From Aphanizomenon flos-aquae FACHB-1287 (lineage in GTDB: Bacteria > Cyanobacteriota > Cyanobacteriia > Cyanobacteriales > Nostocaceae), in NCBI RefSeq assembly GCF_014698755.1, contig NZ_JACJTO010000006.1, positions 1 to 64,000 of the forward strand: a stretch of 64,000 nucleotides of DNA, read 5' to 3'. The notes beneath the pieces were generated by a model, which worked only from the letters and a program-made list of their open reading frames with translations, was not told the DNA's origin and did not search any database. Position numbers and translations under genes: made by a program. Positions 4,838 through 30,569 of this stretch are shown one piece after another (the first letter of the stretch is position 1; the number at the start of each line of letters is the position of its first letter).

Positions 4838-6271
4838 TTAACCCCTTCTGACACAAAGCATGGTAATATCATCAAACTGCGGGGCATCAGCAATAAAAGC
4901 AAATAAATTAGTTTTAATTGCATTGAGCAAATCATTAGCACAATTGCATGGCTGCTCCAGAATATCTCGCAGTCGCTTGTCTGTGAATAACTTACCTTCA
5001 GGGTTTTTGCCCTCCGTTACACCGTCAGTATAGCCAATCAATATATCACCGGATTCAATCTGAACCTGTTGGATTTTAAATTTACTTCCAGGCATCATTC
5101 CTACCGCAGGCCCTGTAGATTTAAGAATATTCTTCACACCAGATTGGTTAAGAACAAACAACGGCTCATGCCCACCATTAATATAAGTAAGAATTCCCGT
5201 TTCTGGTTCCAAAATACCAAAAAACATAGTTGCAAACATACTCATTTGCCAGTGATTTTGGGCAACATATTCATTAGTTCGAGAAACTGCTTGCAGGGCA
5301 TTGAGGTGATCTAAATTTCTGAAGTCAGATTCACTCAGCCAACCACCAATAGGCTGATTGTCCTCAAGAATTTGATCAGCCAGTCCACGCAATTGCGTTT
5401 CCGAAGAAAACACACGGATTAAACTCCGCATCAAAGCCATGAATAATGCTGCACCTACACCTTTATCACATACATCCGCAATTACCAGTCCTACCTGATT
5501 ATTAGGAAGATCAAAAGTGTCGTAGAAATCTCCAGCTACCTGACGGGCAGGATAGAAACAAGCAGCAATTTCCCAATTAGGCGATTTAACTAGTTCATAA
5601 GGCAGAAAATCAATCTGTATTTGTCGTCCCTTTTCTAGTTCAGCGTCAAGAGCTTTAGAATATTTATCAAGTTTTGAATACAGACGAGCATTTTCCAAAA
5701 CTAAAGCCATCTGGTCAGCAGTTAGCAGCATGAGATTAGCTATTTCTTGGCTAAAATGCCCTGGTTGAGAATGTAATAAAGTTATTATTCCTAATAATTC
5801 TTCCCCTCTGATAATAGGAACAGCCAAAGCAGAACGGACATTATACGGCTGATTAGGTAAGGTGAGCCAGCGATTATCTTTCTCAGTATCTAAAATCAAT
5901 CCCATTTGGCGATTACGGATTACCCAACCGGCTAGGCCTTTATCTAATACATTACCGATCAGATTCTTACGTTGTTCTGATGTTACTTCCGCCCGCGACA
6001 AAATTGCATCTACTACTTTTCCAGAAGGCTCAAGTAAAAATAGACTGCCTTTTTCTGACTTAGTTTGATCTGTGGCCACATCTAATGTAGTCTGTAATGC
6101 GGCTTTTAGTACCTCCCTTTCCGTCGCAGAGCGTGCCATTGATACTAATTTTTCTAGCAAATGACCTTGAGCTTTAAAAGCAGCCCCTTCATTTCTGAGT
6201 TCTGCTACTTCTCGACGAAGTGCTTCTAGTTCTTCGTAATCTACTGCTTGAATCTGATTGTTAAAACTCAT
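4838..6271 (-). CDS. icfG: GAF-PP2C (SpoIIE/RsbU-type) serine phosphatase, IcfG-like
   Basis: 477 residues. A short coiled coil (about 8-40) is followed by a GAF domain (about 55-200) and a SpoIIE-type PP2C domain (about 230-477). The phosphatase metal-binding motifs are present: VAGDFYD, VIADVCDKG, GHEPLFVL, GYTDGVTEG and FDDITMLCV. The ATG at 6271 is chosen over the upstream TTG (6286) because AGGGGG lies just before it. The enzyme should dephosphorylate STAS-domain antagonists, two of which lie upstream in the same cluster together with an RsbW-like kinase. The same gene set (STAS, glgX, STAS, PP2C, kinase) makes up the icfG cluster of Synechocystis PCC 6803, known to link carbon and glucose metabolism. 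The GAF domain suggests an input signal that cannot be named. The symbol rests on gene order and is not proven. Confidence 0.85.
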   Translation of the reverse strand: MSFNNQIQAVDYEELEALRREVAELRNEGAAFKAQGHLLEKLVSMARSATEREVLKAALQTTLDVATDQTKSEKGSLFLLEPSGKVVDAILSRAEVTSEQRKNLIGNVLDKGLAGWVIRNRQMGLILDTEKDNRWLTLPNQPYNVRSALAVPIIRGEELLGIITLLHSQPGHFSQEIANLMLLTADQMALVLENARLYSKLDKYSKALDAELEKGRQIQIDFLPYELVKSPNWEIAACFYPARQVAGDFYDTFDLPNNQVGLVIADVCDKGVGAALFMALMRSLIRVFSSETQLRGLADQILEDNQPIGGWLSESDFRNLDHLNALQAVSRTNEYVAQNHWQMSMFATMFFGILEPETGILTYINGGHEPLFVLNQSGVKNILKSTGPAVGMMPGSKFKIQQVQIESGDILIGYTDGVTEGKNPEGKLFTDKRLRDILEQPCNCANDLLNAIKTNLFAFIADAPQFDDITMLCVRRG

Positions 6272-6447
6272 ATTCCCCCTAAGCAAATGATTCTAAACAC
6301 GAATGTAAACTGAGTTATCCCGAAAATTAGATGCCTAAAACCTGTATGTATTCTACTTTTCAATTGCTTAACCTACTAACTTAGATTAGTGGGGGCTGAA
6401 TTAACTAGACATCTGGTGAAAATTAAATTTGCGTTTCCTAGAACCCT

Positions 6448-6477
6448 TGTAGAGAAGTTCTATCGAATATCTCTACA
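6448..6477. terminator. TGTAGAGA-type palindrome after the kinase gene
   Basis: An inverted repeat with arms TGTAGAGA / TCTCTACA and a partly paired middle (AGTTC / GAATA). It is one of four related palindromes in the window, all just downstream of a gene end. No T-run follows on the minus strand, so a classical intrinsic terminator is not shown. It could be an attenuator or RNA-stability hairpin between kinase and phosphatase. Confidence 0.45.
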
Positions 6478-6527
6478 TTTTCTCTAAATATTTCCAATAT
6501 AGCCTAAACAAACAGCTATAAAATCAG

Positions 6528-6947
6528 TTATTTGCAATTGACAATAAAGATATTGCGATTTTTATCACCCTCACGCTCATACAAATATTGGTCAACACCT
6601 TGAATTGCTAAATATACACCTAGTCCCCCTATTTGCCGCTCTTCCAAAGGCTTATTTAATTCTTGGGCTGCTACAGTCACCTTGTCATGAGGATCATGTC
6701 TAGCTCCAGTATCTTCAATACAGATAGTGAGCGTGGATTCCCCAAGAGTAGCAGATATCTTTAATTGGCCTTGCAAACCAGCTTCCTCATAGCCATGAAT
6801 AATTATATTAGTGGCAATTTCGTCAACTGCTAGACGGAGCTTGTAAGTAGCTTTTTTATCCAAAGCTGCTGATTCGGCTGCCGTTTTGATGTATGTAGCG
6901 ATCGCCTCTAAAGAGTCTAATGTTCCCGATACGGTTAAAGTTTCCAT
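6528..6947 (-). CDS. RsbW/SpoIIAB-type anti-sigma serine kinase (HATPase_c_2)
   Basis: 139 residues, the usual length for this family. The GHKL ATP-binding signatures are visible: an N box (AVDEIATNIIIHGY), a G1-type box (CIEDTGARHDP) and a G2-like GGLGVYLA. Such kinases phosphorylate a serine in STAS antagonists and bind a sigma factor or another target when the antagonist is phosphorylated. Both substrates are probably the STAS proteins at 7157 and 9728. In Synechocystis the equivalent kinase (Slr1861) phosphorylates Slr1856 and Slr1859. The gene is separated by about 210 bases from the STAS gene upstream and by about 256 from the phosphatase downstream. Each gap holds a hairpin, so expression may be uncoupled. 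No sigma factor gene is nearby. Confidence 0.85.
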   Translation of the reverse strand: METLTVSGTLDSLEAIATYIKTAAESAALDKKATYKLRLAVDEIATNIIIHGYEEAGLQGQLKISATLGESTLTICIEDTGARHDPHDKVTVAAQELNKPLEERQIGGLGVYLAIQGVDQYLYEREGDKNRNIFIVNCK

Positions 6948-7084
6948 AAACAGTGGTTCTGATATTGATCGATAATCACTTGCATATTTACAACCTTCCC
7001 AAACAATAAAGATTCGTATCTTTTTAAATTTCTGGTGTCGTAGATTTTATTTAGGAAAGTGATTTTTTGTTATCTCCTAACCTC

Positions 7085-7115
7085 TGTAGAAACTTTCCTG
7101 CCGAAAGTTTCTACA
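7085..7115. terminator. Perfect 13-bp stem hairpin between STAS and kinase genes
   Basis: Arms TGTAGAAACTTTC and GAAAGTTTCTACA pair perfectly around a 5-base loop (CTGCC). It lies 42 bases after the STAS stop on the minus strand. No T-tract follows. It belongs with the TGTAGA palindromes at 6448, 52714 and 56715. A role as attenuator or processing site is inferred from position only. Confidence 0.5.
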
Positions 7116-7156
7116 ATTAAATCCGATTGTATTTGGTGCAAAATCAAATTGCTAAA

Positions 7157-7516
7157 CTATGCCGATTTGTTGATCTCCTCCTCATTATCTACCAAATAAA
7201 CACTGTGGTCAAAGCCAGTCTTCTTAATAGTATCTAATACAGTCTCTTGAGTGCCAACCATATAGATTTTTACATCTGTTCCCATCTTTTGTTTAGCGAA
7301 GATTAGCACCCGGAGTCCGGCACTGGCCATGTACTCTAGTCCTTCCATCATCAGCACTAAACGTTGAGGATTAAGTTTAGCAGCCTCTTCTACCTTGTCT
7401 TTAAAACCTGTTGCTGTACTGGCATCCAGGTCTCCAGCTAAGGTAATTTTAGCAACATTATCACTTGTTTCTAGAGTTATTTCTAGAGAAGTTTTTCCAG
7501 TTTGTTCAGTAGTCAT
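7157..7516 (-). CDS. STAS-domain anti-anti-sigma factor (RsbV-like), downstream copy
   Basis: 119 residues forming a single STAS domain. The phosphorylation-site helix is clear: LEYMASAGLRVLIFAK, with the target serine near residue 65. The preceding strand-helix pattern (AKITLAGDLDAST) is typical. It should be phosphorylated by the RsbW-like kinase and restored by the PP2C enzyme encoded next. It lies 79 bases after glgX, and a second STAS gene lies on the other side of glgX. That matches the slr1856-glgX-slr1859 order of the Synechocystis icfG cluster. The two STAS proteins here are clearly divergent, so they may answer to different partners. Confidence 0.9.
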   Translation of the reverse strand: MTTEQTGKTSLEITLETSDNVAKITLAGDLDASTATGFKDKVEEAAKLNPQRLVLMMEGLEYMASAGLRVLIFAKQKMGTDVKIYMVGTQETVLDTIKKTGFDHSVYLVDNEEEINKSA

Positions 7517-7595
7517 GATTTCCTGTTAATATTTGAATTGCAAAAAAGTAGTTGAAAGGTGAAAACTGGCAAAATTAACTTTGCCAAAATTGAAT

Positions 7596-9716
7596 TTATT
7601 TACCTACCAAGATTGCCACAGAGCGATCGCCCATTAACAAACCCGATTGATTTTCTAGCATCGGTTCAGTACCAGGTTGCCAACTATCATGGGGTGTTGT
7701 AGCACCAGTATTTGCGAAAATATGCCAATTCATGCCCATAGGTAAGCCAGGAATCTCAAACCACAGAGAGTCCCAGTGCATATTCATAGCCACGTAGACG
7801 TAATTATCTTCTACAGTGCCTTGCTTGGCGTGTTTCCCACAGAGCATAAAAGCCAGAGTCCGCGCAGAATCAGACCAATCAGCGTTCCATGCCCGTGTGC
7901 CATGCCAAGTAATATCGGCATAACCGCTGCCCACATAATCGCGGTTTTGGAAATGCCAGGGATTTCTTAACACTGGATGGAGATTGCGGAAAGCAATACA
8001 GTGTTTAAAAAACTTAAACAAATCTGCATTTTTTTGTAACAGTGTCCAATCTAACCAGTTTAAGTCATTATCATGACAGTAAGTGTTATTATTGCCATAT
8101 TGAGTGCGTCCCACCTCATCACCCATGAGAATCATTGGCACCCCCTGACTTACCATCAGCATAGCCAGGGCATTTTTAATTTGCCGATGGCGTAAAGCAT
8201 TGATACCTGGATCATCTGTTTGACCCTCCCAACCGCAGTTCCAACTATCATTATCATTAGTGCCATCGTTGTTATTTTCACCATTGGCTTCATTATGTTT
8301 CCCGTTATAGGAAACCATATCCATCATGGTAAAACCATCGTGGGCAGTAATAAAATTAATAGATGTTGCGGGCGCACGGCCAGACAAAGCATACAAATCT
8401 GGAGAACCTTGCAGACGTTGGGCGGTATCCCCAACCGTACCATCTCCTTTTAAGAACTTACGAATCCCATCACGGTATTTACCATTCCATTCTGCCCAAC
8501 GTCCATAAGCTGGGAAAGAACCGACTTGGTATAAACCGCCAGCATCCCAAGCTTCAGCAATCAGTTTACACTTAGCCAAAATCGGGTCAAAGGCCAAAGA
8601 TTCCAACAGAGGAGGATTTGCTAAGGGTGCGCCCCAAGGATCACGACCTAAAATAGCTGCCAAGTCAAACCGGAAGCCATCAATATGATATTCTGAAGCC
8701 CAGTAACGCAGACAATCTAAAACTATACCCCGCACAATGGGGTTATTACAGTTGAGAGTATTACCAGTCCCGCTAAAGTTGTAATAGTACCCTTCTGGGG
8801 TAAGCATATAATAGGTCTTATTGTCAATTCCTCGAAAAGAAATTGTCGGACCATGCTCGTTACCTTCGGCAGTATGGTTAAAAACTACATCAAGAATGAC
8901 CTCAATCCCGTTTTTATGCAATTCCTTAACCAGGGCTTTTAACTCATCCATCTGCATCCCAAATTTGCCTGTAGCCGCATAACCAGCCTTGGGAGCAAAA
9001 AAACCAACTGTACTATAACCCCAATAATTATATAGAGTTTCTCCAGTTTGGGGATTAGGACGGCTATTTTCAAACTCATCAAACTCATAAATAGGCATCA
9101 ACTCCACAGCATTGACACCCAACTCTTTCAGGTAAGGAATTTTATCCCGAATACCAGCAAAAGTACCCTGATATTTTTCTTTTACACCGGATGATGGATG
9201 ACGGGTAAAACTGCGGACGTGCATTTCATAAATAACTTGATCTTCTGGAGGAATTTCCAAAGGACAGTCATTTTCCCAGTCAAAATCATCAAAAGCAATT
9301 CTGGCGCGATGATGGTAGATATCATTCCAGTCTGGAGTCACACCCCAAACATCCCGACCACCAATAATTTTGGCGTAGGGGTCCATCAAAACTTTGCTGG
9401 TATCAAACCAATGACCTGCCTGGAAATTATTTGGACCATCCATGCGATAGCCATATTCCAGATTTTCATAATCCAGGTCAAAGACAGTCATGCTATAAAC
9501 ATTACCAATGCGAAATTCTTCAGGAAAAGGAATTTCGGCTAAGGGTTTTTTGGCGTGTTTTTCAAACAGGACTAAAGTACAGGATTTGGCGTAACTCGAA
9601 AAAATTGAGAAGTTAACCCCCCCTGGAACTAGGGTTGCACCAAACGGAAATGGTTTTCCGTTGCGTAATTTAAACCCCTCATAAGTATGCGTTGAATGAA
9701 CATCAATTCTTTCCAT
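7596..9716 (-). CDS. glgX: Glycogen debranching enzyme GlgX (isoamylase-type, GH13)
   Basis: 706 residues, full length for GlgX. It has an N-terminal CBM48-like region (residues about 15-110: FPFGATLVPGGVNFSIFSS) followed by a GH13 barrel. The conserved regions are DVVFNHTAEG, DGFRFDLA with the nucleophile Asp, AEAWDAGG with the acid Glu, and ITAHDGFT with the third Asp. It cleaves alpha-1,6 branches of glycogen or limit dextrin in the cytosol. The stop of the upstream STAS gene is only 11 bases before its start, so the two are translated from one message. This placement between two partner-switching antagonists suggests regulated glycogen mobilisation. Confidence 0.95.
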   Translation of the reverse strand: MERIDVHSTHTYEGFKLRNGKPFPFGATLVPGGVNFSIFSSYAKSCTLVLFEKHAKKPLAEIPFPEEFRIGNVYSMTVFDLDYENLEYGYRMDGPNNFQAGHWFDTSKVLMDPYAKIIGGRDVWGVTPDWNDIYHHRARIAFDDFDWENDCPLEIPPEDQVIYEMHVRSFTRHPSSGVKEKYQGTFAGIRDKIPYLKELGVNAVELMPIYEFDEFENSRPNPQTGETLYNYWGYSTVGFFAPKAGYAATGKFGMQMDELKALVKELHKNGIEVILDVVFNHTAEGNEHGPTISFRGIDNKTYYMLTPEGYYYNFSGTGNTLNCNNPIVRGIVLDCLRYWASEYHIDGFRFDLAAILGRDPWGAPLANPPLLESLAFDPILAKCKLIAEAWDAGGLYQVGSFPAYGRWAEWNGKYRDGIRKFLKGDGTVGDTAQRLQGSPDLYALSGRAPATSINFITAHDGFTMMDMVSYNGKHNEANGENNNDGTNDNDSWNCGWEGQTDDPGINALRHRQIKNALAMLMVSQGVPMILMGDEVGRTQYGNNNTYCHDNDLNWLDWTLLQKNADLFKFFKHCIAFRNLHPVLRNPWHFQNRDYVGSGYADITWHGTRAWNADWSDSARTLAFMLCGKHAKQGTVEDNYVYVAMNMHWDSLWFEIPGLPMGMNWHIFANTGATTPHDSWQPGTEPMLENQSGLLMGDRSVAILVGK

Positions 9717-9727
9717 TAAACTTTTCC

Positions 9728-10075
9728 TTATTTAAGGGCTTTTAATCCTGCTTCCAGGTTTTCAGTAGTGACAAAATGTACTAAAAATCCAGTAGTATCC
9801 ATTGTATCTTTGAGTTCTTCATTCAAACCCACCAATAATAATTTCCCTTCTTTGGCTGTAGTTTGCCGATGTATACTCAGCAGAGTCCGTAAACCTGCAC
9901 TGGACATATATTCTACCTTTGTCATGTCGAGCAGAATTTTACTTTCCGGTACAACTAAAGCTAAAACTGCGTCTGTCACTGATTTTGCTGTACTGGCATC
10001 TATATCGCCCCTCACCACAACTAAGTTTATATCTTCATTCGTTGTGATATTAATCTCAAATTTAGGTTCTTCCAT
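9728..10075 (-). CDS. STAS-domain anti-anti-sigma factor (RsbV-like), upstream copy
   Basis: 115 residues, one STAS domain, with VRGDIDASTAKSV near the N-terminus and the phospho-serine helix VEYMSSAGLRTLLSIH near residue 58. Two adjacent serines (SS) are present in the helix, and the second aligns with the usual target. It lies 74 bases after the AGE-like gene and 11 bases before glgX. By gene order it corresponds to Slr1856 of Synechocystis. Expected partners are the kinase at 6528 and the phosphatase at 4838. Confidence 0.9.
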   Translation of the reverse strand: MEEPKFEINITTNEDINLVVVRGDIDASTAKSVTDAVLALVVPESKILLDMTKVEYMSSAGLRTLLSIHRQTTAKEGKLLLVGLNEELKDTMDTTGFLVHFVTTENLEAGLKALK

Positions 10076-10149
10076 GTTGTCAACTTTCAGTGGATTTGTA
10101 TTTAAGTATGGAGAAGAGGGAGAAACACTCCTCCCTTTCTTCTCTCTAG

Positions 10150-11970
10150 TTATACAGGGACAATCTGCACTTTTACTTTCACCCGTTCGCTGGTTTTTGG
10201 TAAAGTGACGGTTAAAGCTTCTGCATCAAAGTTGCTGTAAGGTTCGCCATCAATTTCGCACTTACCAATTTTCACGCTACCGGGTGGTAAAATATCTGGT
10301 GATACTCTAAGAATATTATCAGCGAATCCACCGGGAATAGGCTTAAAGTAGAAATCCATTGGCTGCTTGGTAATGAGCAGGTTTGTATACACTGCCGCCA
10401 AATAGCATAACTCAAAGGAGTGATAACCACTCATAGAGTGAGAACCTTTCCCTCTTTCGTTACCCCCAGCTAGATAGGGAATACCATTAGCAAGAACGTT
10501 AAAGTAAACCCCACCCTCTTCTAAATCTAAAAACCAAGCATTATAGAATGCTGCGGATTCACGAGCCAAGCGGTGATATTCTTTGTTATCAAGAATACCC
10601 GCTAGAATTTGGTAAGCTAAGATTGCTTGTTCTTGTTGCCACCAAGCTTTACGATCATGCCAAACAAAGCGGTAATGCTCTTCTCCTTCAGCTAGGGTGC
10701 GTTCTACAACGTCGTACCAGCCACCACGTTGCTGATCACTACCCACTGCTGGCATGATATCAGCAATTTTTTGAGCGAGATTGACATAGCTATCTTTAGC
10801 TTTGAGGCTTTGCATCCGCATCAAATTCCAGGCAATTTTGAGGTTGTGACCGACGACAGCGCGGTTTTGCTGCCAACCCCAAGTTTGATCATTAGACCAG
10901 TCTTGAAAGAATCTCTCCTGTACAAATGGACTATTTTCGTAGTCAGGGAACCGCTTTTCAATGGTGTCGAAGGTATACTCCAACATATCCGCGTATTCTT
11001 GTTTACCTGTCGCTAACCACAGGTTAATCAGGTAAGCTGGGGCATGATCACCAACAGAGTTCCAGTTTTTTGTTCCCTTATTATGCCCTAATGAATCACT
11101 GAGAGGATCTAATGTCAAAGGATCAAGGTGAGAAAAATATCCGCCGTGTTCACCTTTATCCAGTAAAAACTCATTAAATAGCTTAATGGTTTTCTCTGTG
11201 TCATCCATAATGCGTGTATCACCAGTACAACGATAGGTTTGAATCGGACCGGCTAGGGCGTAAATTTGTTCATAAGCAGGGATAGCATAGTAATCATCGC
11301 CAAATTCGGAAGCAAAGATTTTATCTTCTTTTTCTCCCTTCACATCAATCCCGTGATACCAGTAGACAATGCCTTCATCTAAGTCTACAAATCTCATGTG
11401 TTCCCGCAGGTACTCAGTACCGTTTTCGGCAGCCTGGAGAAAGCTGTCATTACCAGTCATCATGAAGGCAGTAGCAAAACCGTAGACCAGACGGGAAATA
11501 GTATCGGTTTCTTGGCGGAAATTGGTGGTTGATTGTATACCGCTGAGATTCAAAGTAGTGCGATATTTGCGATAGTCGTAGTCACCATCGCCAAATTGAG
11601 CTTTGAGGTAAAATTTACCTAAAGCATTAATTTGCTGTACCCACCAATTTTGTTTCTCAAAAACGTAATCGTTTTTTTGACGACCGGCAAAAACTATTTG
11701 TTTAGCATCGAAGACATCTTTATCTGGATAAAATACCCCATAAGTAAATAAATATCTTCCAGGTAATAACATGGCTCTCATGCTGCCAGTTGCATCTGGG
11801 TAGCCTTCGTCAAAATTTTGAATTAATTTCGCATAGGCCATGGGACTAATTTTAACTTCAAACTCTCTGCCATCAGAAGTTTTCAGTCCAAATGTGTCGC
11901 TATTACCGTCATATTCAGTAACGTATCCAGCTATGAGATCAGAGAAGGTAAAATCTACCTTTGTGGTCAT
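10150..11970 (-). CDS. AGE-like (N-acylglucosamine 2-epimerase fold) protein with extra N- and C-terminal domains
   Basis: 606 residues. Residues of about 110-500 read as an alpha/alpha-6 barrel of the AGE/cellobiose-epimerase superfamily: NFRQETDTISRLVYGFATA, VYWYHGID, GHNLKIAWNLMRM and FVWHDRKAWWQQEQAILAY carry the conserved Arg, His and Trp pattern. The N-terminal 100 residues (GYVTEYDGNSDTFGLKT and PGRYLFTYGVFYPDKDVFDAKQIVF) look like a small beta domain, and the last 80 residues a beta-rich tail. That makes the protein about 200 residues longer than standard AGE enzymes. Substrate is unknown; a glucose or oligosaccharide epimerase would fit the glgX context. A large AGE-type protein also sits in the Synechocystis icfG cluster, from memory slr1855. 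Confidence 0.75.
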   Translation of the reverse strand: MTTKVDFTFSDLIAGYVTEYDGNSDTFGLKTSDGREFEVKISPMAYAKLIQNFDEGYPDATGSMRAMLLPGRYLFTYGVFYPDKDVFDAKQIVFAGRQKNDYVFEKQNWWVQQINALGKFYLKAQFGDGDYDYRKYRTTLNLSGIQSTTNFRQETDTISRLVYGFATAFMMTGNDSFLQAAENGTEYLREHMRFVDLDEGIVYWYHGIDVKGEKEDKIFASEFGDDYYAIPAYEQIYALAGPIQTYRCTGDTRIMDDTEKTIKLFNEFLLDKGEHGGYFSHLDPLTLDPLSDSLGHNKGTKNWNSVGDHAPAYLINLWLATGKQEYADMLEYTFDTIEKRFPDYENSPFVQERFFQDWSNDQTWGWQQNRAVVGHNLKIAWNLMRMQSLKAKDSYVNLAQKIADIMPAVGSDQQRGGWYDVVERTLAEGEEHYRFVWHDRKAWWQQEQAILAYQILAGILDNKEYHRLARESAAFYNAWFLDLEEGGVYFNVLANGIPYLAGGNERGKGSHSMSGYHSFELCYLAAVYTNLLITKQPMDFYFKPIPGGFADNILRVSPDILPPGSVKIGKCEIDGEPYSNFDAEALTVTLPKTSERVKVKVQIVPV

Positions 11971-12024
11971 AATATTTCCTCGTTTTGGTAAGAATTGATT
12001 AGGTTAAATTATGTATTTACAGAA

Positions 12025-12627
12025 CTAATTTTTCTCAATTTCTTGGACAAAGGTTTCCATGAATTGGTCTACCATTCCTGGATGTTTGCCTGTAATGAGA
12101 TTACCATCAATGACTAAATCAGCAGTGACATCACCTTCATAAATAACATCTGCCCCAGCATTTTCTACATCACAAATGATGTTATGAGCGCAGGTGACTT
12201 TTTTGCCTTTAATTAGGTCTGGGTCGGCACAGAACAACCACAAACTATGGCAAATAGTCCCTAATTTGACATTATCTGTATTCGCTGCATTTCTGAGAAA
12301 AACAACGGCAGGAGCTTGATTTTTTTGCCCCTTTTTGACATTGACTTCATATCGAAGTCTATCCATTGCATAGGCTCCGATACAAATAATGCCTTTATAG
12401 TCGCTGGGTTTTACGTCTTTAACTTCTGTGCTGACAGTGACATGATATTCTACTTGATCATTTTCGGGGTTGGAACCAAAGTGTAGTTCTTTGTTGCCCC
12501 AAAGATGGGAAATATACTCTACTTCATAACCTTGTTCAGGGAAATATTCATTGAAGCGACGAAATTCTGTGCCGTCAAAATGTTCTTCAATAAGTACACC
12601 GATTTTGCCTTTACTATTAGCTGTCAT
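12025..12627 (-). CDS. DJ-1/PfpI family protein
   Basis: 200 residues, a single glutamine-amidotransferase-like fold. The nucleophile elbow is GTICHSLWLF with Cys near residue 126, and a conserved Glu is in LIEEHFDGTEF near residue 15. This fits DJ-1/PfpI enzymes such as glyoxalase III, deglycases or stress proteases. The residue after the Cys is His, as in glyoxalase III-type and PfpI members. It sits 54 bases upstream of the AGE-like gene and 171 bases after the Nif11-SnoaL gene. A DJ-1/PfpI gene is also part of the Synechocystis icfG cluster. Detoxifying sugar-derived aldehydes would fit the carbohydrate setting but is inferred. Confidence 0.85.
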   Translation of the reverse strand: MTANSKGKIGVLIEEHFDGTEFRRFNEYFPEQGYEVEYISHLWGNKELHFGSNPENDQVEYHVTVSTEVKDVKPSDYKGIICIGAYAMDRLRYEVNVKKGQKNQAPAVVFLRNAANTDNVKLGTICHSLWLFCADPDLIKGKKVTCAHNIICDVENAGADVIYEGDVTADLVIDGNLITGKHPGMVDQFMETFVQEIEKN

Positions 12628-12798
12628 CTAAATTTTAATCCTTGGTGATTTGGGAAATTAAGAGAATTGTAAAAACTGTATGACAGAGTGAAAAAATACG
12701 ATAATTTAGAGGTAAGGATAAACGGTTGTTTACCCCTAGTTAATGCTGCTTAAATCAAGAATATTGAAGATCAATAAATTTCTTGATTTGGGGAAAAT

Positions 12799-14307
12799 TT
12801 AAGTTATGGCTTGGTGATAAATTTCGTACAGATGTCCATCTGGAGAAAGTTCTTGGAATATTTTCGGTTCGAGCGATCGCATTTTACCATCAATGGATTT
12901 TTTAAAGAATTCTGGACTTTCCCACTGGGCATAGTTGATCACTCTAGTCCCATCTAAACTTCTGTGCAAAGTGGAGGAGATAAAGCCCGGTTGGTATTTA
13001 ACGTGGTTTTCCATGTAATCAACAATGCTGTTTAAAAGTTCTTGTTGTTTCCATGTTTCAACTTCAAATACCACAATTACTGGAAATACTTGGGAAGCCT
13101 TTTGCTTATCCAGCGCAACGGCTTTACCAGCAGCTTCACCCCAAGGAGACATATCTGCATAGACGCGCCATTCACTGACCTTATTTCCCCGCATTCGATA
13201 GATATCACAACAAGCTACTGTCACGTGTTTCTTGCTGCCCACCATTTCATATTTAGCGTCCATTTCAATGGTGATGATATCTGGTTCTATCCAAATTTTC
13301 CGGGCATCATGACCATAAAACTTAGCAGTAGTTTTAAAGGTGTGTTTAAAGAAGTCTACAACTGCATTTGGTCCATACATTGGCTCACCTGAACCAACTT
13401 TATAAAACAGGTCATCTGTTAGATAAGTTTTGACTTTTTCCCAATCTTCAGCCATGATTGCTGCTGATAGTTCACCAACTGCTTTTAACTGTTCTGATGG
13501 TGTTTCCATATTACCCTCTACTGACCACTTTGGTCCACCAATTGACCATTTAGGAATATATCCTTGGGCTACTCTTTGTTTAGCTTCTGGATGTTCGGCA
13601 AAATGTCTTCTCATTGTGCCAGGAGGAAGCATTTGCTGTCCTTTGCTAACTGTCAACACAGAAGCAGATTCAGGAACGGGGATTGAAGGATCAAATACAG
13701 GATTTACATCCATAAAAATCCGCAGTTCACTGAATTTATCTCCCTCAACTCGGAAGATGTCAAAACAAGGAAGTGAAACAACTGAGCCATCTTTGCGCCA
13801 GTATGTCACGTCCATTTCTACGAATACCGCATCTCCTTCTTCCCAGATCATTTTGATCTCGTGGTATACGGCATCAATTTGACTAAAGAAGGCATCGGCT
13901 GATTTTCTGATTGATTCTTTATCTAAACAGACATCAAAGTTACCAAATTGATAAACTGGTGTATCGGTAAAGAAGGTAATAAAACCTTCAGAATCAAATG
14001 CTTCACCTCTGGAAAATAGGCGTTTTACTAAGTCTGTATTTGTTCCAGAAATGCTTTCTGTGTTGGGAGTTTCGGCGTTATCAGGTGATCCTTGTGCCAT
14101 CAATTCACCCATCATTGACTGCACAACTTGGCCAAAAACTATATGAACTTTACCCAGTGCTGCCGCGAATTCTTGCTGACTTAATTCATAGCCATTTTCT
14201 CTAGCAATCTTGACAAACTGTTCAGCCGTATTAGCAGAATGGAGTTGCTGTTGGAGATTGGGTTGATCAAAGGCTGCTTGTAACAGGTCTATTACTTTAT
14301 GTGACAT
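12799..14307 (-). CDS. Nif11-like N-terminus fused to two SnoaL-like domains and an ABM domain
   Basis: 502 residues in four modules. Residues 1-55 (VIDLLQAAFDQPNLQQQL, then KIARENGYELSQQEF) match a Nif11-type leader domain. Residues about 85-210 and 255-400 are two SnoaL/NTF2-like cones (GEAFDSEGFITFFTD and AAIMAEDWEKVKTYLTDDLF). Residues about 405-502 form an antibiotic-biosynthesis-monooxygenase (ABM) ferredoxin-like domain (VIVVFEVETWKQQE, INYAQWESPEFFKKS). The SnoaL pair is nearly the same as the C-terminus of the next gene upstream. Nif11 normally serves as a RiPP leader or appears in nitrogen-fixation-associated small proteins, so this fusion is odd. No substrate can be named. It starts 20 bases after the 1065-residue gene, so co-translation is likely. 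Confidence 0.8.
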   Translation of the reverse strand: MSHKVIDLLQAAFDQPNLQQQLHSANTAEQFVKIARENGYELSQQEFAAALGKVHIVFGQVVQSMMGELMAQGSPDNAETPNTESISGTNTDLVKRLFSRGEAFDSEGFITFFTDTPVYQFGNFDVCLDKESIRKSADAFFSQIDAVYHEIKMIWEEGDAVFVEMDVTYWRKDGSVVSLPCFDIFRVEGDKFSELRIFMDVNPVFDPSIPVPESASVLTVSKGQQMLPPGTMRRHFAEHPEAKQRVAQGYIPKWSIGGPKWSVEGNMETPSEQLKAVGELSAAIMAEDWEKVKTYLTDDLFYKVGSGEPMYGPNAVVDFFKHTFKTTAKFYGHDARKIWIEPDIITIEMDAKYEMVGSKKHVTVACCDIYRMRGNKVSEWRVYADMSPWGEAAGKAVALDKQKASQVFPVIVVFEVETWKQQELLNSIVDYMENHVKYQPGFISSTLHRSLDGTRVINYAQWESPEFFKKSIDGKMRSLEPKIFQELSPDGHLYEIYHQAIT

Positions 14308-14327
14308 AACTATTCTCCTAAATTATC

Positions 14328-17300
14328 TCAGTTTTGCCATGGGGTCATATCAGCATAAACCCGCCATTCACTGACCTTATTTCCCCGCATCCGATAGATA
14401 TCACAACAGGCAACTACCACGTGTTTTTTACTGCCCACCATTTCATATTTAGCGTCCATTTCAATGGTGATGATATCTGGTTCTATCCAAATTTTCCGGG
14501 CATCATGACCATAAAACTTAGCGGTAGTTTTAAAGGTGTGTTTAAAGAAGTCTACAACTGAGTTTGGTCCATACATTGGCTCACCTGAACCCACTTTATA
14601 GAAAAGGTCATCGGTTAGATAAGTTTTGACTTTTTCCCAATCTTCAGCCATGATTGCTGCTGATAGTTCACCAACTGCGGTTAATTGTGGTGAAGAAGCA
14701 GGGGTATTTTCAATACCGATAGGCCATTTAGGTCCAGCAATTGACCATTTAGGAATAAATCCTTGGGATACTCTTTCTTTACCTTCTGGATGTTCGGCAA
14801 AATGTCTCCTCATGGTGTCAGGAGGAAGCATTTTCTGTCCTCTACTAACTGTCAGCACAGAAGCAGATTGAGGCACAAAAATAGAGGAGTTAAATACGGG
14901 ATTTACATCCATGAAAATCCGCAATTCACTGAATTTATCCCCTTCAACTCGGAAGATATCACTACAAGGAAGTGAGATAACTGAGCCATCTTTTCGCCAA
15001 TAGATAACATCCATTTCTACGAAGACGACGTTGCCGATTTCCCAAATCATTTTGATTTCGTGGTATACGGCATCAATTTGATTGAAGAAAGCATCGGCTG
15101 ATTTTTTGATGGCTTCTTTGGTTAAACAGACATCAAAGTTACCAAATTGATAAACTGGTGTGTCTGTAAAGAAAGTAATGAAACCTTCGGCATCAAAAGC
15201 TTCTCCCCTGGAGAACAATCGCTTTACTAAGTCTGTATTCGTGCCGGGAAATTTTTTGGACATGGATATAGTTCTATTATTGGTTGTTGTTAAATTGCCA
15301 GAGTTATAATTTTCTATCTGGTCAATTTGAGGATGTTCTCCGTTTGTTGTGGAATTGAAGTCAGTAATTATTGCTTCTGGAAACGTGAATGTAGTGCCAT
15401 TAGCCTGGTTATATTCTTCCATACCTTTTTGGAAGCTGGTTTTAACTTTACGGGTAACTTGGTTAAATTCCAATTGTTCCCCGTTTGGTCCTTTGCAGTA
15501 GAACAAAGACCAACCTTCCATTGGGTCATGACTCCAATCTATTTCTGGTTCACCTGCAGCGATCACTTCTGGTTCGTTCCAAAATTTAAAGGAATTATAT
15601 CTTTGAGCTACTACTCTTCTTTCTGCTTCTGATTTCACGTTGACAACTCGGTTACAAACCACGTTTGTCATTCCACGTTTATGACATTCTGCTTCCAACA
15701 TTTGAGCAAAAACATTTAAATCAACACCTTCTTTGACGTTGAAAGAAATGTGCATGGCATTGACATTACCAATGTGGGAAGGAATGGTAGGAACTGAAGC
15801 ATGAGAGGCATTAGGTTTACCAGCTTCTCGGAAGTGAATCAGTTCGATAACGGTATTCCCAAAGGAAATAAACCTCACATCTAAGGCATCTTCCTTAGCA
15901 CTTCTAAGATGGGGAACTTTGATAGTTTGGGGATTGATACTTTGAGCGATCGCATCCAGTTCTTCTTTTTGAAAAAGGGTATTCTGAATGACATCACCAA
16001 CTAACTCGCTTTCGGCAACAACCAGTTTTCCTCCTAACACTTCTAAGTAAAAGTCTAAAGATTGAGAAATGTCATTAACCGTAACACCGACGTGTTGAAC
16101 GCCTTGTAATAAATGACCTAATCCAGACGTAGTTAAAGGGCTATGCTTTAAATCAGTTTGACTATTGTTGATTAAACCCTTACCGTTAGTTTGACCATTG
16201 TTGATTAAACCTTTACCGTTAGTTTGACCACCAACCATTAAGGTAACAATATCATTTTTAATTTGATTAGCAGCCCCAATTTTAGTGATTAACTCTGCTA
16301 CTTTGGCACTCCGCTGACCAGCAAGAGTCATTTGACCATCGTAAACAAAGGTGTAGGCTGTTCTCTCGGGAAATGGTTGGATTTGTTTAATGTATTTAGC
16401 CGCATCTTTAACTGCTGCTAAATATTCGGAAGACGCGAAAAACTTCTCTCTTTCGAGATGATTAGCAAAGGCAATTTCATAAGCTGCATGATATTGCTTT
16501 TCTTCAGGTTCGTAGTGACTGACTCCCGCTGCATCTGGACGAGAATTATCTACTGCTTCAAATAGATGCAATCGGAATTTGAGTACAGAATCACTACTGC
16601 TAACTTTACGGGCAAAAGTTTCTGTGAGATAACGACGAAAAACTTCCATGCTCACACCATGAGCTTTTTTAACCATGACGTGAAATTTGATTGCGTCAAT
16701 TTCACCGTTAGGAATGCCGTTAGAAATCTTATCTATGTATGTAATAGAATTACCAGGACTGCTGTTATAACCAATGGCTTTGCGGAATAAGTTATGCTCG
16801 TCATCCATCAGAATGGCAGAAGCTGTAAACCATGTCTGACGCTCTGCTTCACTGGCAAATGTTAATTCGGCAATCCCATCAAAGTTATCTTCTGAGTCTG
16901 TTGTATAGTCTAAGCCGGGAATGTTTGGACAGAAGCCACCTTGGTTATGAGCTATATGAAACTGCCAATATTGATACTGTCCTGGTAATCGGGCGCAAAC
17001 TGGTCCGTGTACGTCTTTCCAATAGTTATCAAAAAGCTCTAGAGAGATGCCTTGTCTTTTCCACAGAAGGACATAAAAGGCTACTTTCCCTTTTTGATCC
17101 CGTGCTGAATAATCGGCTGTGGTTGCCTTTTTGCTTTCTACAAGCATTGCTGCTGTCCTTGGTGTAGAATGAAAATCATCAACAATTAAATTCAGGGTAG
17201 CAAAGCAAGCTGCAACTTTATTAAATCCTGCATAAATACAGAGGAACAATAACAGTTCTTCAATTTCTGCGAGGGTTGCACCTTGCTGAAGAGCCATTTT

Positions 17301-17525
17301 TACATGGGCTGCAAAAGGGTTGTCAGAACCTCTATGATCCTGATTGACAACATCAATAGCAATGGTAATTAGAGCCTTAGTTTTTTGGTCAATTAATGGC
17401 AAACCCCAAGCTTCACCTGCTACCCGAATGACAAAATCACCAAACTTAGGATTAATTTGTTTTAAACCTTTTTGAAGTTCGAGGTCATCTAAAACTGCGT
17501 TTTTGTACACTCGCACCTGTTCCAT
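14328..17525 (-). CDS. Six-module fusion: CMD - EthD - EthD - VOC - SnoaL - SnoaL
   Basis: 1065 residues. Residues 1-120 form a carboxymuconolactone-decarboxylase domain (FAAHVKMALQQGATLAEIEEL) with no CxxC pair. Residues about 140-250 form an EthD domain with the WKDVHGPV motif, and about 270-395 a second, more divergent EthD without HGP. A low-complexity linker near 435-460 repeats NGQTNGKGLIN. Residues about 475-690 form a two-module VOC domain with plausible metal ligands: His in VQHVGVTV, Glu in TVIELIHF, His in AMHISFNV and Glu in EQLEFNQV. Residues 755-1065 are two SnoaL domains beginning at an internal Met (15261-15263) that looks like a fossil start. It begins 2 bases after the previous stop, which indicates translational coupling. 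The overall chemistry is unknown. Confidence 0.8.
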   Translation of the reverse strand: MEQVRVYKNAVLDDLELQKGLKQINPKFGDFVIRVAGEAWGLPLIDQKTKALITIAIDVVNQDHRGSDNPFAAHVKMALQQGATLAEIEELLLFLCIYAGFNKVAACFATLNLIVDDFHSTPRTAAMLVESKKATTADYSARDQKGKVAFYVLLWKRQGISLELFDNYWKDVHGPVCARLPGQYQYWQFHIAHNQGGFCPNIPGLDYTTDSEDNFDGIAELTFASEAERQTWFTASAILMDDEHNLFRKAIGYNSSPGNSITYIDKISNGIPNGEIDAIKFHVMVKKAHGVSMEVFRRYLTETFARKVSSSDSVLKFRLHLFEAVDNSRPDAAGVSHYEPEEKQYHAAYEIAFANHLEREKFFASSEYLAAVKDAAKYIKQIQPFPERTAYTFVYDGQMTLAGQRSAKVAELITKIGAANQIKNDIVTLMVGGQTNGKGLINNGQTNGKGLINNSQTDLKHSPLTTSGLGHLLQGVQHVGVTVNDISQSLDFYLEVLGGKLVVAESELVGDVIQNTLFQKEELDAIAQSINPQTIKVPHLRSAKEDALDVRFISFGNTVIELIHFREAGKPNASHASVPTIPSHIGNVNAMHISFNVKEGVDLNVFAQMLEAECHKRGMTNVVCNRVVNVKSEAERRVVAQRYNSFKFWNEPEVIAAGEPEIDWSHDPMEGWSLFYCKGPNGEQLEFNQVTRKVKTSFQKGMEEYNQANGTTFTFPEAIITDFNSTTNGEHPQIDQIENYNSGNLTTTNNRTISMSKKFPGTNTDLVKRLFSRGEAFDAEGFITFFTDTPVYQFGNFDVCLTKEAIKKSADAFFNQIDAVYHEIKMIWEIGNVVFVEMDVIYWRKDGSVISLPCSDIFRVEGDKFSELRIFMDVNPVFNSSIFVPQSASVLTVSRGQKMLPPDTMRRHFAEHPEGKERVSQGFIPKWSIAGPKWPIGIENTPASSPQLTAVGELSAAIMAEDWEKVKTYLTDDLFYKVGSGEPMYGPNSVVDFFKHTFKTTAKFYGHDARKIWIEPDIITIEMDAKYEMVGSKKHVVVACCDIYRMRGNKVSEWRVYADMTPWQN
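16168..16240. repeat. 36-bp in-frame tandem duplication in the linker of the fusion protein
   Basis: Two adjacent copies of a 36-base unit encode NGQTNGKGLIN-N/S twice, followed by a third degenerate start (SQTDLK). It sits in the flexible linker between the EthD and VOC modules, where length change should be tolerated. It is probably a slippage product. Confidence 0.7.
16316..17115. repeat. Copy 1 of an ~800-bp near-identical duplication (EthD-EthD coding region)
   Basis: This stretch aligns without gaps to 18244-19043 at a fixed offset of 1928 bases, with only about a dozen differences noticed by eye. Homology ends sharply on both sides, where the two genes encode different modules. This points to recent duplication or gene conversion within the cluster. 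Confidence 0.85.
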
Positions 17526-17527
17526 TA

Positions 17528-19075
17528 TTAAGCGGTGGTGATCAAGTTCAATAATTCCTGAGCAGCAAAAACATCACGATAGAAAGTTAGTTGCTCAGTC
17601 TTCAAATAGCAAGCACCACGATGACCACGACGCACCCAAGTTACATTACCTTTAGCTAGAGTTTCGTTGGTTTCATCATCTACACACTTCCATTCAAAAT
17701 AAGTATGTTCACCAAAAAACATGACAATTGGCCAGCACATTGTCACTCCGGGTTGAGCAATTAAAGCCCACCAATGTTTTTCTCTTTCTTTTTGTTGTTC
17801 TAAACCTTGGTAAGGTCCATCTTGGCAAAAATAAACTAGATCATCACGATATTCTCCAGTTAAAATATCGCCTCTTCCTTGTCTTAAGGCTTCACAATGG
17901 GTAGGCCACCAATCTCTGTTTTCTTGTTCTATTTGTGCAAGGGTGTAATAAGGACTAATTTCTGGTAATTTTGGCTCTTTCATCGCCACAATTCTTTCTG
18001 CATCTTCGATTAGTTTTTTGGCTACGTAAGGAGTAACTAAACCGGGGCGAGAATAATCGGCTGATAAGTCAGTATAATAATTTGTTCTCTTTTTCGTTGC
18101 TTTTGGCTGGTTTTGTCCGGATTGAGATCCGTTAGTTTGTTGACTGTAAAGAGTTTGATTTACCATGAGAGATTCTATGTCTTTTTGAATTTGATTAAGT
18201 GCGCCAATTTCTGTGATCAGTTCTGCTACTGAAGAACTGCGTTGACCAGCGAGGGTCATTTGACCATCGTAAACAAAGGTGTAGGCTGTTCTCTCGGGAA
18301 ATGGTTGGATTTGTTTAATGTATTTAGCCGCATCTTTAACTGCTGCTAAATATTCGGAAGACGCAAAAAACTTCTCTCTTTCGAGATGATTAGCAAAGGC
18401 AATTTCATAAGCTGCATGATATTGCTTTTCTTCAGGTTCGTAGTGACTGACTCCCGCTGCATCTGGACGAGAATTATCTACCGCTTCAAATAGATGCAAT
18501 CGGAATTTGAGTACAGAATTACTACTGCTAACTTTACGGGCAAAAGTTTCTGTGAGATAACGACGAAAAACTTCCGTGCTCACACCATGAGCTTTTTTAA
18601 CCATGACGTGAAATTTGATTGCGTCAATTTCACCGTTAGGAATGCCGTTAGGAATCTTATCTACATAAGTAATAGAATTGCCAGGACTGCTGTTATAACC
18701 AATGGCTTTGCGGAATAAGTTATGCTCGTCATCCATCAGAATGGCAGAAGCTGTAAACCATGTCTGACGCTCTGCTTCACTGGCAAATGTTAATTCGGCA
18801 ATCCCATCAAAGTTATCTTCTGAGTCTGTTGTATAGTCTAAGCCGGGAATGTTTGGACAGAAGCCACCTTGGTTATGAGCTATATGAAACTGCCAATATT
18901 GATACTGTCCTGGTAATCGGGCGCAAACTGGTCCGTGTACGTCTTTCCAATAGTTATCAAAAAGCTCTAGAGAGATGCCTTGTCTTTTCCACAGAAGGAC
19001 ATAAAAGGCTACTTTTCCTTGTTGATCCCGTGCTGAATAATCGGTTTTGTCTGCTTTATTAATTACTGCGAGCAT
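17528..19075 (-). CDS. EthD - EthD - SnoaL-like protein
   Basis: 515 residues. Residues 13-285 are two EthD domains almost identical, at DNA as well as protein level, to those of the next gene (WKDVHGPV present in the first, absent in the second). A polar linker (about 315-335, rich in Q, N, S, K) leads to a C-terminal domain of about 165 residues: WWPTHCEALRQGRGDILTGE, LVYFCQDGPYQGL and VTWVRRGHRGACYLKTEQL. This reads as an NTF2/SnoaL-like fold of a different subfamily from those in the neighbours. EthD proteins are dimeric ferredoxin-like folds found in alkyl-ether degradation and polyketide pathways. Its role here is unknown. It is second in the putative operon. Confidence 0.75.
   Translation of the reverse strand: MLAVINKADKTDYSARDQQGKVAFYVLLWKRQGISLELFDNYWKDVHGPVCARLPGQYQYWQFHIAHNQGGFCPNIPGLDYTTDSEDNFDGIAELTFASEAERQTWFTASAILMDDEHNLFRKAIGYNSSPGNSITYVDKIPNGIPNGEIDAIKFHVMVKKAHGVSTEVFRRYLTETFARKVSSSNSVLKFRLHLFEAVDNSRPDAAGVSHYEPEEKQYHAAYEIAFANHLEREKFFASSEYLAAVKDAAKYIKQIQPFPERTAYTFVYDGQMTLAGQRSSSVAELITEIGALNQIQKDIESLMVNQTLYSQQTNGSQSGQNQPKATKKRTNYYTDLSADYSRPGLVTPYVAKKLIEDAERIVAMKEPKLPEISPYYTLAQIEQENRDWWPTHCEALRQGRGDILTGEYRDDLVYFCQDGPYQGLEQQKEREKHWWALIAQPGVTMCWPIVMFFGEHTYFEWKCVDDETNETLAKGNVTWVRRGHRGACYLKTEQLTFYRDVFAAQELLNLITTA
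18244..19043. repeat. Copy 2 of the ~800-bp near-identical duplication
   Basis: Partner of 16316-17115 (offset 1928, same orientation). Some of the differences change residues, for example TEVF against MEVF and SSN against SSD. The copies are in direct repeat, so recombination between them would delete about 1.9 kb and fuse the two genes in frame. Confidence 0.85.
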
Positions 19076-19208
19076 TCTTGCTGTCCTTTCTCACTGTTGA
19101 TGCCACTTTGATCAAAATAAAGTTTGAACACCGGGGAAAATACAAGGTTTTCCATCCCGACAACTACATTAACATAGTAGCATCCAGGTTGAAAAAACAA
19201 ACCCAAAA

Positions 19209-19550
19209 TTATTTTCCCATTATTTCATTTAAAGCACCAAAACAACCTGCAACTTTATTAAATCCTGCGTAAGCACAGAGGAATAATAATAGTTCTTCAA
19301 TCTCTTCAGGAGTTGCTCCCTGTTTGATAGCCATACCGACGTGAGCCCCAAAGGGGCTTCCAGGTCCAGTTTGCCCTTGGTTAACTACATCAATAGCAAT
19401 GGTAATCAGGGCTTTGGTTTTTTGGTCAATTAATGGTAAACCCCAAGCTTCACCTGCTACTCGCGTGACAAAATCACCAAATTTGGGATTTATTAGTTTT
19501 AAAGCCTCTTGAAGCTCTAAATCATCTAAAACAGCATTTTCATACTTCAT
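19209..19550 (-). CDS. Carboxymuconolactone decarboxylase (CMD) family protein
   Basis: 113 residues, one CMD domain: ALITIAIDVVNQ, GAHVGMAIKQGATPEEIEEL and AYAGFNKVAGC. It is closely similar to the first 113 residues of the 1065-residue fusion, so the fused domain probably came from a gene like this one. A CxxC peroxidase motif is absent, so it is not an AhpD-type reductase. The conserved His of the HVxxA motif is present. It is the first gene of the minus-strand cluster. The 230 bases upstream (19551-19780) should contain the main promoter. AGGGG lies 11-12 bases before the ATG. A CMD gene also belongs to the Synechocystis icfG cluster (slr1853 from memory). Confidence 0.85.
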   Translation of the reverse strand: MKYENAVLDDLELQEALKLINPKFGDFVTRVAGEAWGLPLIDQKTKALITIAIDVVNQGQTGPGSPFGAHVGMAIKQGATPEEIEELLLFLCAYAGFNKVAGCFGALNEIMGK

Positions 19551-30567: not shown

Positions 30568-30569
30568 CT

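Follow-up and report, generated by a model that had tools for sequence, protein, structure and literature searches.

An enlarged icfG-type locus in Aphanizomenon flos-aquae FACHB-1287: a partner-switching relay beside a recurrent metabolic gene set and a mosaic fusion gene

Since the 1990s the icfG operon has been connected with the use of carbon and glucose, and knock-down of cyAbrB1 reportedly induces the icfG and sll1783 operons, going by the title of Hishida et al. 2024. In the cluster of Synechocystis PCC 6803 we take Slr1853 to be the CMD protein and Slr1854 the DJ-1 protein. Here we describe a related locus at positions 4838-19550 of a 64,000-nucleotide stretch of DNA, called the window, from the cyanobacterium Aphanizomenon flos-aquae FACHB-1287 (GCF_014698755.1, contig NZ_JACJTO010000006.1, positions 1-64,000, from a draft of 85 contigs). 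As given in the available excerpts of two papers, the other Synechocystis members are Slr1855 (AGE, the acylglucosamine epimerase family), Slr1856 and Slr1859 (STAS), Slr1857 (GlgX), Slr1860 (PP2C phosphatase), and Slr1861 (kinase) (PMC12329169, PMC8670252). The excerpts of the first paper state that Slr1861 phosphorylates Slr1856, Slr1859, and Ssr1600, that IcfG dephosphorylates Slr1856, and that SigC is bound by Slr1861 according to holoenzyme analysis and modelling (PMC12329169); those of the second state that the operon slr1852-1862 is repressed by salt (PMC8670252). The cluster in the window is a real, conserved, and enlarged icfG-type locus, and its extra parts belong together as a wider unit. 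We lean towards reading it as a whole in which a metabolic set stands with a partner-switching relay. This set comprises an AGE-like protein, a GH13 debranching enzyme, DJ-1, CMD, a protein with two EthD units (EthD2), and the family that we call Acterm, often together with VOC and SnoaL modules and a multicopper oxidase.

Eleven open reading frames (ORFs) on the minus strand make up the cluster (Table 1), and the coordinates, the common direction, and most of the families given in the original prediction are borne out. Read from 19550 to 4838, the order is CMD, gene A, gene B, gene C, DJ-1, AGE-like, STAS, GlgX, STAS, kinase, and GAF-PP2C. A PP2C phosphatase, an RsbW-type kinase, and two STAS proteins are thus found beside GlgX, AGE-like, DJ-1, and CMD genes, as expected of an icfG-type cluster. 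The window shares AGE, two STAS proteins, GlgX, PP2C, and kinase with the Synechocystis cluster (slr1852-slr1861), so the gene set supports the predicted likeness; the predicted gene order does not hold throughout, as the kinase precedes PP2C in the window whereas in Synechocystis the phosphatase gene icfG (slr1860) comes before that of the kinase (slr1861). Unlike the Synechocystis cluster, the window also has EthD2, VOC, a SnoaL pair, Nif11, ABM, a fusion protein, and a linked porin and multicopper oxidase. Two other loci (L014 and L015; labels with L are loci and those with G are genomes) read Acterm-CMD-DJ-1-AGE-STAS-GlgX-STAS-PP2C-kinase, and from gene order in these two only we infer that the Acterm family is the equivalent of Slr1852. 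The short gaps or coupling that had been predicted are found at six of the ten junctions (2-79 base pairs, bp), but the other four measure 133, 171, 209, and 241 bp. Terminator-like sites exceed those in shuffled sequence (21 vs 11.9), and each of the eight listed on the minus strand lies within a gene; a promoter scan gave 33 sites vs 41 in shuffles, which is no excess.

The residues expected of a partner-switching relay are present in the kinase, the phosphatase, and the STAS proteins, and we take their roles to be those known for these families. Kinase residues E43, N47, D79, and G107-G110 are kept in at least 90% of 27 aligned rows, PP2C residues D253, D256, D271, D274, D421, D472, and D473 in at least 95% of 14 rows, and S59 of STAS protein 2 in at least 95% of 58 rows. 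GlgX scores above the NCBIfam equivalog cut-off of TIGR02100 (701.8 vs 640.9 bits). The relay and the glgX gene of the original prediction are supported by Pfam matches, motif residues, and TIGR02100. C126 and H127 of the DJ-1 protein occur in at least 97% of 73 rows. The 606-residue AGE-like protein has no Pfam match at E 0.01 and falls far below the cellobiose 2-epimerase EpiA equivalog NF041848 (25.4 vs 800 bits). Its whole chain matches N-acylglucosamine 2-epimerase 8bry by profile (E 5e-06), and its homologues in L080 and L093 lie above the GlcNAc_2-epim (PF07221) cut-off; as far as sequence comparison can tell, kinship with the AGE superfamily holds through these homologues.

The same metabolic genes recur, and are linked, in other genomes. 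In a survey of 386 genomes of the cyanobacterial phylum, source genome included, AGE was found in 37. Acterm is a family of about 190 residues with no Pfam match that forms the C-terminal half of gene A and is a separate ORF in many loci. It was found in 25 genomes, every one of which has AGE, with the two genes within 15 kb in 21; they lie about 30 kb apart in G278 and G382 and 2.0 and 2.5 Mb apart in G145 and G187. Two candidates per genome were scored for EthD2 and for the multicopper oxidase described below, which makes those counts lower bounds. EthD2 occurs in at least 14 genomes, 13 of them with AGE, while G213 has EthD2 and no AGE; a match in L024 (34% over 44 residues) and a weak 54-residue match in G123 were not counted. 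Unlinked homologues in relatives had been named as the finding that would speak against the original prediction, and in 12 of the 13 genomes no more than 15 kb separates EthD2 from AGE. In the thirteenth, G382, one AGE copy is 29 kb away from EthD2, and another AGE, 40% identical, about 0.7 kb away. All CMD (two) and EthD (four) Pfam matches of the source genome are inside the cluster. A scan with an EthD2 alignment, using the best 80 of 232 relatives, gave 74 loci, or 66 with eight proteobacterial loci (L111-L118) left out; some of these overlap or share a genome (e.g. L068/L083), and L012 and L092 are identical. EthD2, CMD, and Acterm occur together in 46 of the 66 loci and in 26 of the 33 that are full-length, and AGE in 37 and 25, respectively.

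The set is also found outside of the cyanobacteria. In L080 (Acidobacteriota) VOC, SnoaL, SnoaL, Acterm, CMD, EthD2, and DJ-1 are all separate genes beside AGE-STAS-GlgX-STAS-kinase-PP2C, and L093 and L095 (Nitrospirota) and L096 (Ignavibacteriota) have the order DJ-1-Acterm-EthD2-CMD-GlgX-AGE/STAS. These loci come from metagenome-assembled genomes, any one of which may contain a binning error. A pirin/quercetinase-like gene (L093:11422-12144) lies within the Nitrospirota cluster. The module set thus recurs across cyanobacteria, separate or fused, and in at least three other phyla, mostly unfused. The linkage is more than chance because it is the same in other families and phyla, and the view of the modules as additions peculiar to this cluster has to be given up; the C-terminal half of gene A is likewise not an extra, since Acterm is a stand-alone cluster gene elsewhere. 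No description of the linkage was found in the open-licence PMC papers searched, and excerpts of PMC12475003, PMC5341163, and PMC2743698 gave nothing further about function. Plasmids carry further versions. The Gloeothece PCC 7822 plasmid has multicopper oxidase-CMD-Acterm-CDGSH-EthD2-CDGSH near a ketosynthase-type gene, HpaB, and a halogenase, with EthD2 flanked by the two CDGSH iron-sulfur genes (L119:10148-11766). The Nostoc NIES-3756 plasmid has STAS, kinase, PP2C, CHASE2, DUF928, CMD, EthD2, Acterm, and an EthD-AtaL-SnoaL protein, and no AGE or GlgX within the 18 kb read. On two rhizobial plasmids a 40%-identical VOC adjoins a 'putative quinol monooxygenase'. The proteobacterial EthD2 proteins (Sphingomonas, Salinicola; 35-39% identical) stand alone, and no other modules were found beside EthD2 in L111-L118; in L111 and L112 the neighbouring ORFs resemble LysR and MFS by their starts alone.

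Table 1. Features of the icfG-type locus and its upstream neighbours in the window
Feature	Position	Strand	Basis
GAF + SpoIIE/PP2C phosphatase, IcfG-like, 482 aa	4838..6286	-	Pfam SpoIIE 8.6e-42, GAF
RsbW/SpoIIAB-type serine kinase, Slr1861-like, 139 aa	6528..6947	-	Pfam HATPase_c_2 1.5e-19
STAS protein 1, anti-sigma antagonist type, 119 aa, motif MASAGLR	7157..7516	-	Pfam STAS 4.1e-19
GlgX-type glycogen debranching enzyme, 706 aa	7596..9716	-	TIGR02100 and Pfam CBM48/amylase
STAS protein 2, 115 aa, candidate phosphoserine S59	9728..10075	-	Pfam STAS 1.2e-20
AGE/cellobiose-2-epimerase-like protein, 606 aa	10150..11970	-	Profile match 8bry
DJ-1/PfpI protein, 200 aa, C126-H127	12025..12627	-	Pfam 1.4e-16
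Gene C: Nif11 - SnoaL - SnoaL - ABM, 502 aa	12799..14307	-	Pfam; ABM just under cut-off
Gene B: CMD - EthD x2 - VOC - SnoaL - SnoaL fusion, 1065 aa	14328..17525	-	Pfam
Fossil leader within gene B: AAGGA and in-frame ATG (M127)	17145..17160	-	Homologous to gene A leader/start
Gene A: EthD x2 (1-300) + Acterm (338-515), 515 aa	17528..19075	-	Pfam EthD 5.6e-17
Stand-alone CMD, 113 aa	19209..19550	-	Pfam CMD 6.9e-13
SLH + OprB porin, possible member, 573 aa	19781..21502	-	Pfam
Multicopper oxidase, 1439 aa, with FG-GAP and DUF4114; probably opens the run	21623..25942	-	Pfam

Gene B encodes four kinds of module in one chain, and the original prediction of shuffled modules is correct in that this gene is a mosaic of copies of its neighbours plus VOC. 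Residues 1-115 are 79% identical to the stand-alone CMD, which makes CMD present twice in the cluster. Residues 127-459 are 87% identical to gene A over 340 residues (95% of the DNA over 899 bases), and residues 744-1063 match the SnoaL pair of gene C (85% at the protein level, 87% at the DNA level). Where CMD passes into EthD, the linker can be aligned with the DNA that separates the stand-alone CMD gene from gene A, with the CMD stop and most of the gap gone. As this linker keeps AAGGA and an in-frame ATG, gene B is most readily understood as a fusion from a copied CMD-gene A pair. Such a copy would have lost the CMD stop and most of the intergenic DNA, thereby joining CMD to the EthD frame, and translation may still start internally at M127. 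Counted by eye, AGGA and an in-frame ATG are kept in 12 of the 18 readable linkers among 22 gene-B ORFs. A single ORF holds the full architecture (CMD-EthD2-VOC-SnoaL-SnoaL) in 20 cases, that of the window among them, and a version with one SnoaL in four.

In a tree of 115 EthD pairs the A and B copies of the same genome pair up in seven genomes (the window, L046, L047, L048, L050, L059, and L063; the L047 pair, at 99/79, falls short of full support), while A and B form separate groups in others, e.g. L054, L055, L058, L061, L066, L075, and L084. The EthD copy of gene A of the window nests among the gene B copies of relatives (99/97). Informative sites were counted within the A/B-homologous stretch only (alignment columns 100-900). 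Sites pairing the two copies of the window outnumber those following orthology by 45 vs 2 against G064 and by 60 vs 2 against G074, and the comparison of G064 with G074 gives 11 to 11. Over this stretch the two copies of the window are 98.1% identical to one another and 84.9-89.1% identical to either relative. On the evidence of these site patterns, the EthD parts of genes A and B have been homogenised by gene conversion in the FACHB-1287 genome. The tract spans about the whole homologous stretch (~775 columns), with borders that are not independently marked; sharp borders were considered and rejected, since the flanking sites that follow orthology fall mostly outside the homology of A and B.

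The chemistry of the modules is less clear from their families. EthD, VOC, SnoaL, ABM, and Nif11 modules had been predicted in three genes, and Pfam agrees for all except ABM of gene C, which is just below the cut-off (22.3 vs 23.1 bits); by phmmer it matches ActVA-Orf6 and anthrone monooxygenases. A Nif11 domain (14167-14295), which is usually a peptide leader, opens gene C. The Nif11-SnoaL-SnoaL form is found in ten ORFs without ABM and in three with it, window included. CMD is above its Pfam cut-off (48.9 bits vs 23) and belongs to the same family as PcaC of the protocatechuate branch, but it is far under the PcaC equivalog cut-off TIGR02425 (34.3 vs 155.7 bits). The VOC module has a glyoxalase I-like site: H478, E561, H592, and E686 of gene B are invariant in 18 sequences, and their position in the motif makes them candidate metal ligands. 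EthD His47 is invariant or nearly so. The model of the second EthD unit, with a predicted local distance difference test (pLDDT) score of 72-92 in ten-residue blocks except 45 at 201-210, has a predicted dimeric alpha+beta barrel fold like that of 4-methylmuconolactone methylisomerase. In structure comparison EthD resembles isomerases (muconolactone, chalcone) and anthrone-oxidase-like or sulfur oxygenase reductase chains to about the same degree; sequence identity to 4-methylmuconolactone methylisomerase and to bacterial chalcone isomerase, which are alike in fold, is only ~9-17%. Plain oxygenases were rejected as an account of the modules: no flavin or haem oxygenase domain appeared in the family searches, and the VOC site is H/E/H/E. 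The term 'oxygenase-type' in the original prediction thus does not fit the modules well, as the VOC site and the EthD fold are isomerase-like as much; the oxidation step that it proposed gains support from the nearby multicopper oxidase. The SnoaL-2 domain matches limonene-1,2-epoxide hydrolase (LEH) by profile (3.1e-08) and by fold, and the tandem NTF2 epoxide hydrolases Lsd19, which has two such domains in tandem like the SnoaL pair of the window, and MonBI/MonBII are among the closest known systems. A true LEH was rejected: of the presumed Asp-Arg-Asp triad one Asp is kept, Arg is replaced by Glu, and the second Asp by Val. Iota-carbonic anhydrase appears in Foldseek for gene B only, as fold-level matches at ranks 25, 28, and 35 among the 50 matches listed. 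The searches made gave no match that covers Acterm, and pLDDT is <50 from residue 260 on.

The right-hand end at 19550 probably falls short: upstream, a porin and a multicopper oxidase are likely to continue the locus as far as 25942. The OprB porin is 230 bp from CMD and has tblastn matches in 18 other loci, with identities of 68-85% for L005, L006, and L045-L048 and of 30-66% elsewhere. The multicopper oxidase, 120 bp from the porin, has the four copper motifs HxHG, HxHxxG, HPxHxH, and HCHxxxHxxxxM, which are also found in the 16 checked of 18 other matching loci; L055 and L090, with partial matches, were outside of the check. Matches of at least 700 residues occur in at least eight of the 386 genomes and any match in 55, mostly short laccase-like proteins. 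The long form is near EthD2 or VOC in seven of the eight genomes, G288 being the exception (distances by eye). A match is present in 13 of 66 loci of the named scan and on the Gloeothece plasmid. This oxidase supports an oxidation step better than the modules originally cited do. Beyond the multicopper oxidase there is a divergent LtrA gene at 26060, and past it, on the same strand, a CHASE2-cyclase, a DUF928 protein, and a 1173-residue protein without a Pfam match (28342-34874); CHASE2 and DUF928 also lie between the relay and CMD on the Nostoc plasmid pNOS3756_1. On the other side a ShlB/FhaC-type transporter is split into two ORFs (3028-4083 and 4384-4758), as if it were a broken gene, downstream of a TPR-CHAT protein (390-2930).

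Three types of locus can be distinguished. In type I loci the STAS genes are separate and a relay is often present. In type II loci AGE carries a fused STAS-like domain at its C-terminus (20 of 67 AGE rows). In type III loci the AGE is distant, DJ-1 is encoded twice, and there is another GH13-type protein; their rows were counted as type I in the AGE tree. One of these loci (L076:7287-15247) is relay-free and contains AGE, DJ-1, EthD2, CMD, Acterm, DJ-1, and an 841-residue alpha-amylase-family protein, with variants in L056, L079, and L044, the last of which has no Acterm match. The fused tails were picked up by a profile that had been trained in part on such tails; they have independent support from tblastn with STAS protein 1 of the window (30-44% in L017, L018, L020, L021, and L024) and from a Pfam match below threshold in L093. 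These fusions suggest that the switch may act on an enzyme as well as on sigma factors. In G187 (L028:7287-11389) AGE is divided into ORFs of 466 and 155 residues with about 2.2 kb between them; their matches share a few residues, as though an insertion had broken up the gene.

Partner switches with an enzyme as the output are known. SiaA and SiaB are a phosphatase and a kinase, and HsbA binds HsbD. The available excerpts describe SiaC of the Pseudomonas aeruginosa SiaABCD system as binding and activating the enzyme SiaD (PMC8457831) and HsbD as intersecting with the HptB cascade (PMC5085249). The output of SiaABCD is a diguanylate cyclase, whereas the AGE-like enzyme of the window is a candidate output. 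Together with the AGE-STAS fusions, these precedents make an enzyme output plausible. We propose that the kinase would phosphorylate the S-A-G-L serine of the STAS proteins and that GAF-PP2C would strip the phosphate upon a signal; the partner then held by the kinase or the STAS protein would set the output. One output would be a sigma factor, as has been shown elsewhere for Slr1861 and SigC, and a second may be the AGE-like enzyme itself in view of the fusions. GlgX would release linear glucans, AGE would isomerise their ends or sugars, and CMD, EthD, VOC, and SnoaL could act by isomerisation or decarboxylation on an intermediate, a cyclic enol or lactone-like compound, that is linked to oxidation by the multicopper oxidase. 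We hold the anatomy and history of the locus with high confidence. The original prediction of a switch controlling both glycogen and a small-molecule step is partly supported; the joint control itself is our inference, which we put slightly below an even chance. The exact chemistry is unlikely to be right as drawn. In its boldest form, which we think rather unlikely in full, the STAS proteins would bind the AGE-like enzyme of their own operon and gate glycogen-derived sugar into a CMD/EthD/VOC/SnoaL/Acterm/multicopper oxidase pathway. The set would then be an ancient unit of Cyanobacteria, Acidobacteriota, Nitrospirota, and Ignavibacteriota, with control made permanent through AGE-STAS fusion in some lineages and four activities brought into one chain in several cyanobacterial orders.

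Several observations weigh against control of the metabolic set by the relay, and some of them favour a plain icfG system in which sigma factors are the sole output and the metabolic genes are co-transcribed targets without direct contact with the switch. We regard that explanation as somewhat unlikely. It draws on the excerpts on Synechocystis, where Slr1861 acts on SigC and phosphorylates three antagonists (PMC12329169), and on the type III loci L044, L056, L076, and L079, which keep the metabolic set without STAS, kinase, or PP2C. The comparison of types I to III therefore shows the metabolic set to vary less than the relay. Additionally, the phospho-site is often missing in the fused domains: among the 19 of 20 tails that could be aligned (L074 is cut short), eight have Ser/Thr at the switch position and the others have Asp, Asn, Ala, or Pro. 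In loci with the fusion the kinase was not found and there was one PP2C match, on the opposite strand of L059. Given these two findings, an AGE-STAS fusion need not be phospho-regulated. The L093 tail is a weak STAS match (18.4 bits, below the 22.6 of Pfam), the picocyanobacterial tails were detected solely with the profile built here in part from fused tails, and the single change that splits types I and II in the AGE tree is weakly supported (66/0, 68% of bootstraps). The two AlphaFold models are of low quality (mean pLDDT 47.6 and 50.5), too low for judging how the domains pack. What a sigma-only output leaves unexplained is the AGE-STAS fusion in 20 of 67 rows and the Nostoc plasmid, where STAS, kinase, and PP2C stand beside CMD, EthD2, and Acterm with no AGE or GlgX in the stretch read.

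The modules and the multicopper oxidase might instead be a secondary-metabolism or detoxification cassette that travels with AGE and GlgX and has no functional tie to the relay or to glycogen. The neighbours of EthD2 on the Gloeothece plasmid and of VOC on the rhizobial plasmids are in keeping with this. The cluster is patchy within the genus (AGE in only two of ten sampled genomes), and EthD2 lacks CMD, Acterm, AGE, GlgX, and DJ-1 in 8 of the 66 loci and in all eight proteobacterial ones, i.e. 16 of 74. The hypergeometric values for Acterm and EthD2 with AGE (1e-30 and 8e-14) ignore the kinship of genomes and so overstate the evidence. A cassette is nevertheless distinctly improbable, as Acterm, the steadiest member, occurs solely in AGE genomes (25 of 25) even when 2.0 and 2.5 Mb away, and the same set accompanies AGE and GlgX in other phyla. 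It is still less probable that the modules are sensors that bind a carbon-status metabolite and inform the relay. Alpha+beta barrel, NTF2, and VOC folds often bind small ligands, the SnoaL-2 domain lacks two of the three LEH triad positions, and several modules are joined in one chain; yet the four VOC residues, the DJ-1 Cys-His pair, and EthD His47 are invariant or nearly so, and PP2C already carries its own GAF domain. Finally, near-identical copies of genes A and B could have been collapsed or swapped in a draft of 85 contigs, making the mosaic partly an artefact, and the two are indeed 100% identical over two successive 100-column blocks. Such an artefact is extremely improbable: the fusion architecture is in 20 ORFs, window included, from many assemblies, the A/B pairing recurs in six other genomes, and the copies differ at 42 of 899 aligned positions.

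For the icfG-type locus read as a metabolic set with its relay, the AGE-STAS fusions point to a candidate physical contact between a switch and an enzyme. The gene B fusion names enzymes that are likely to act in one pathway, and the pair of genes A and B clearly illustrates how gene conversion can keep a fusion gene like its source. The multicopper oxidase, and perhaps the porin, join the list of icfG-linked genes to study.

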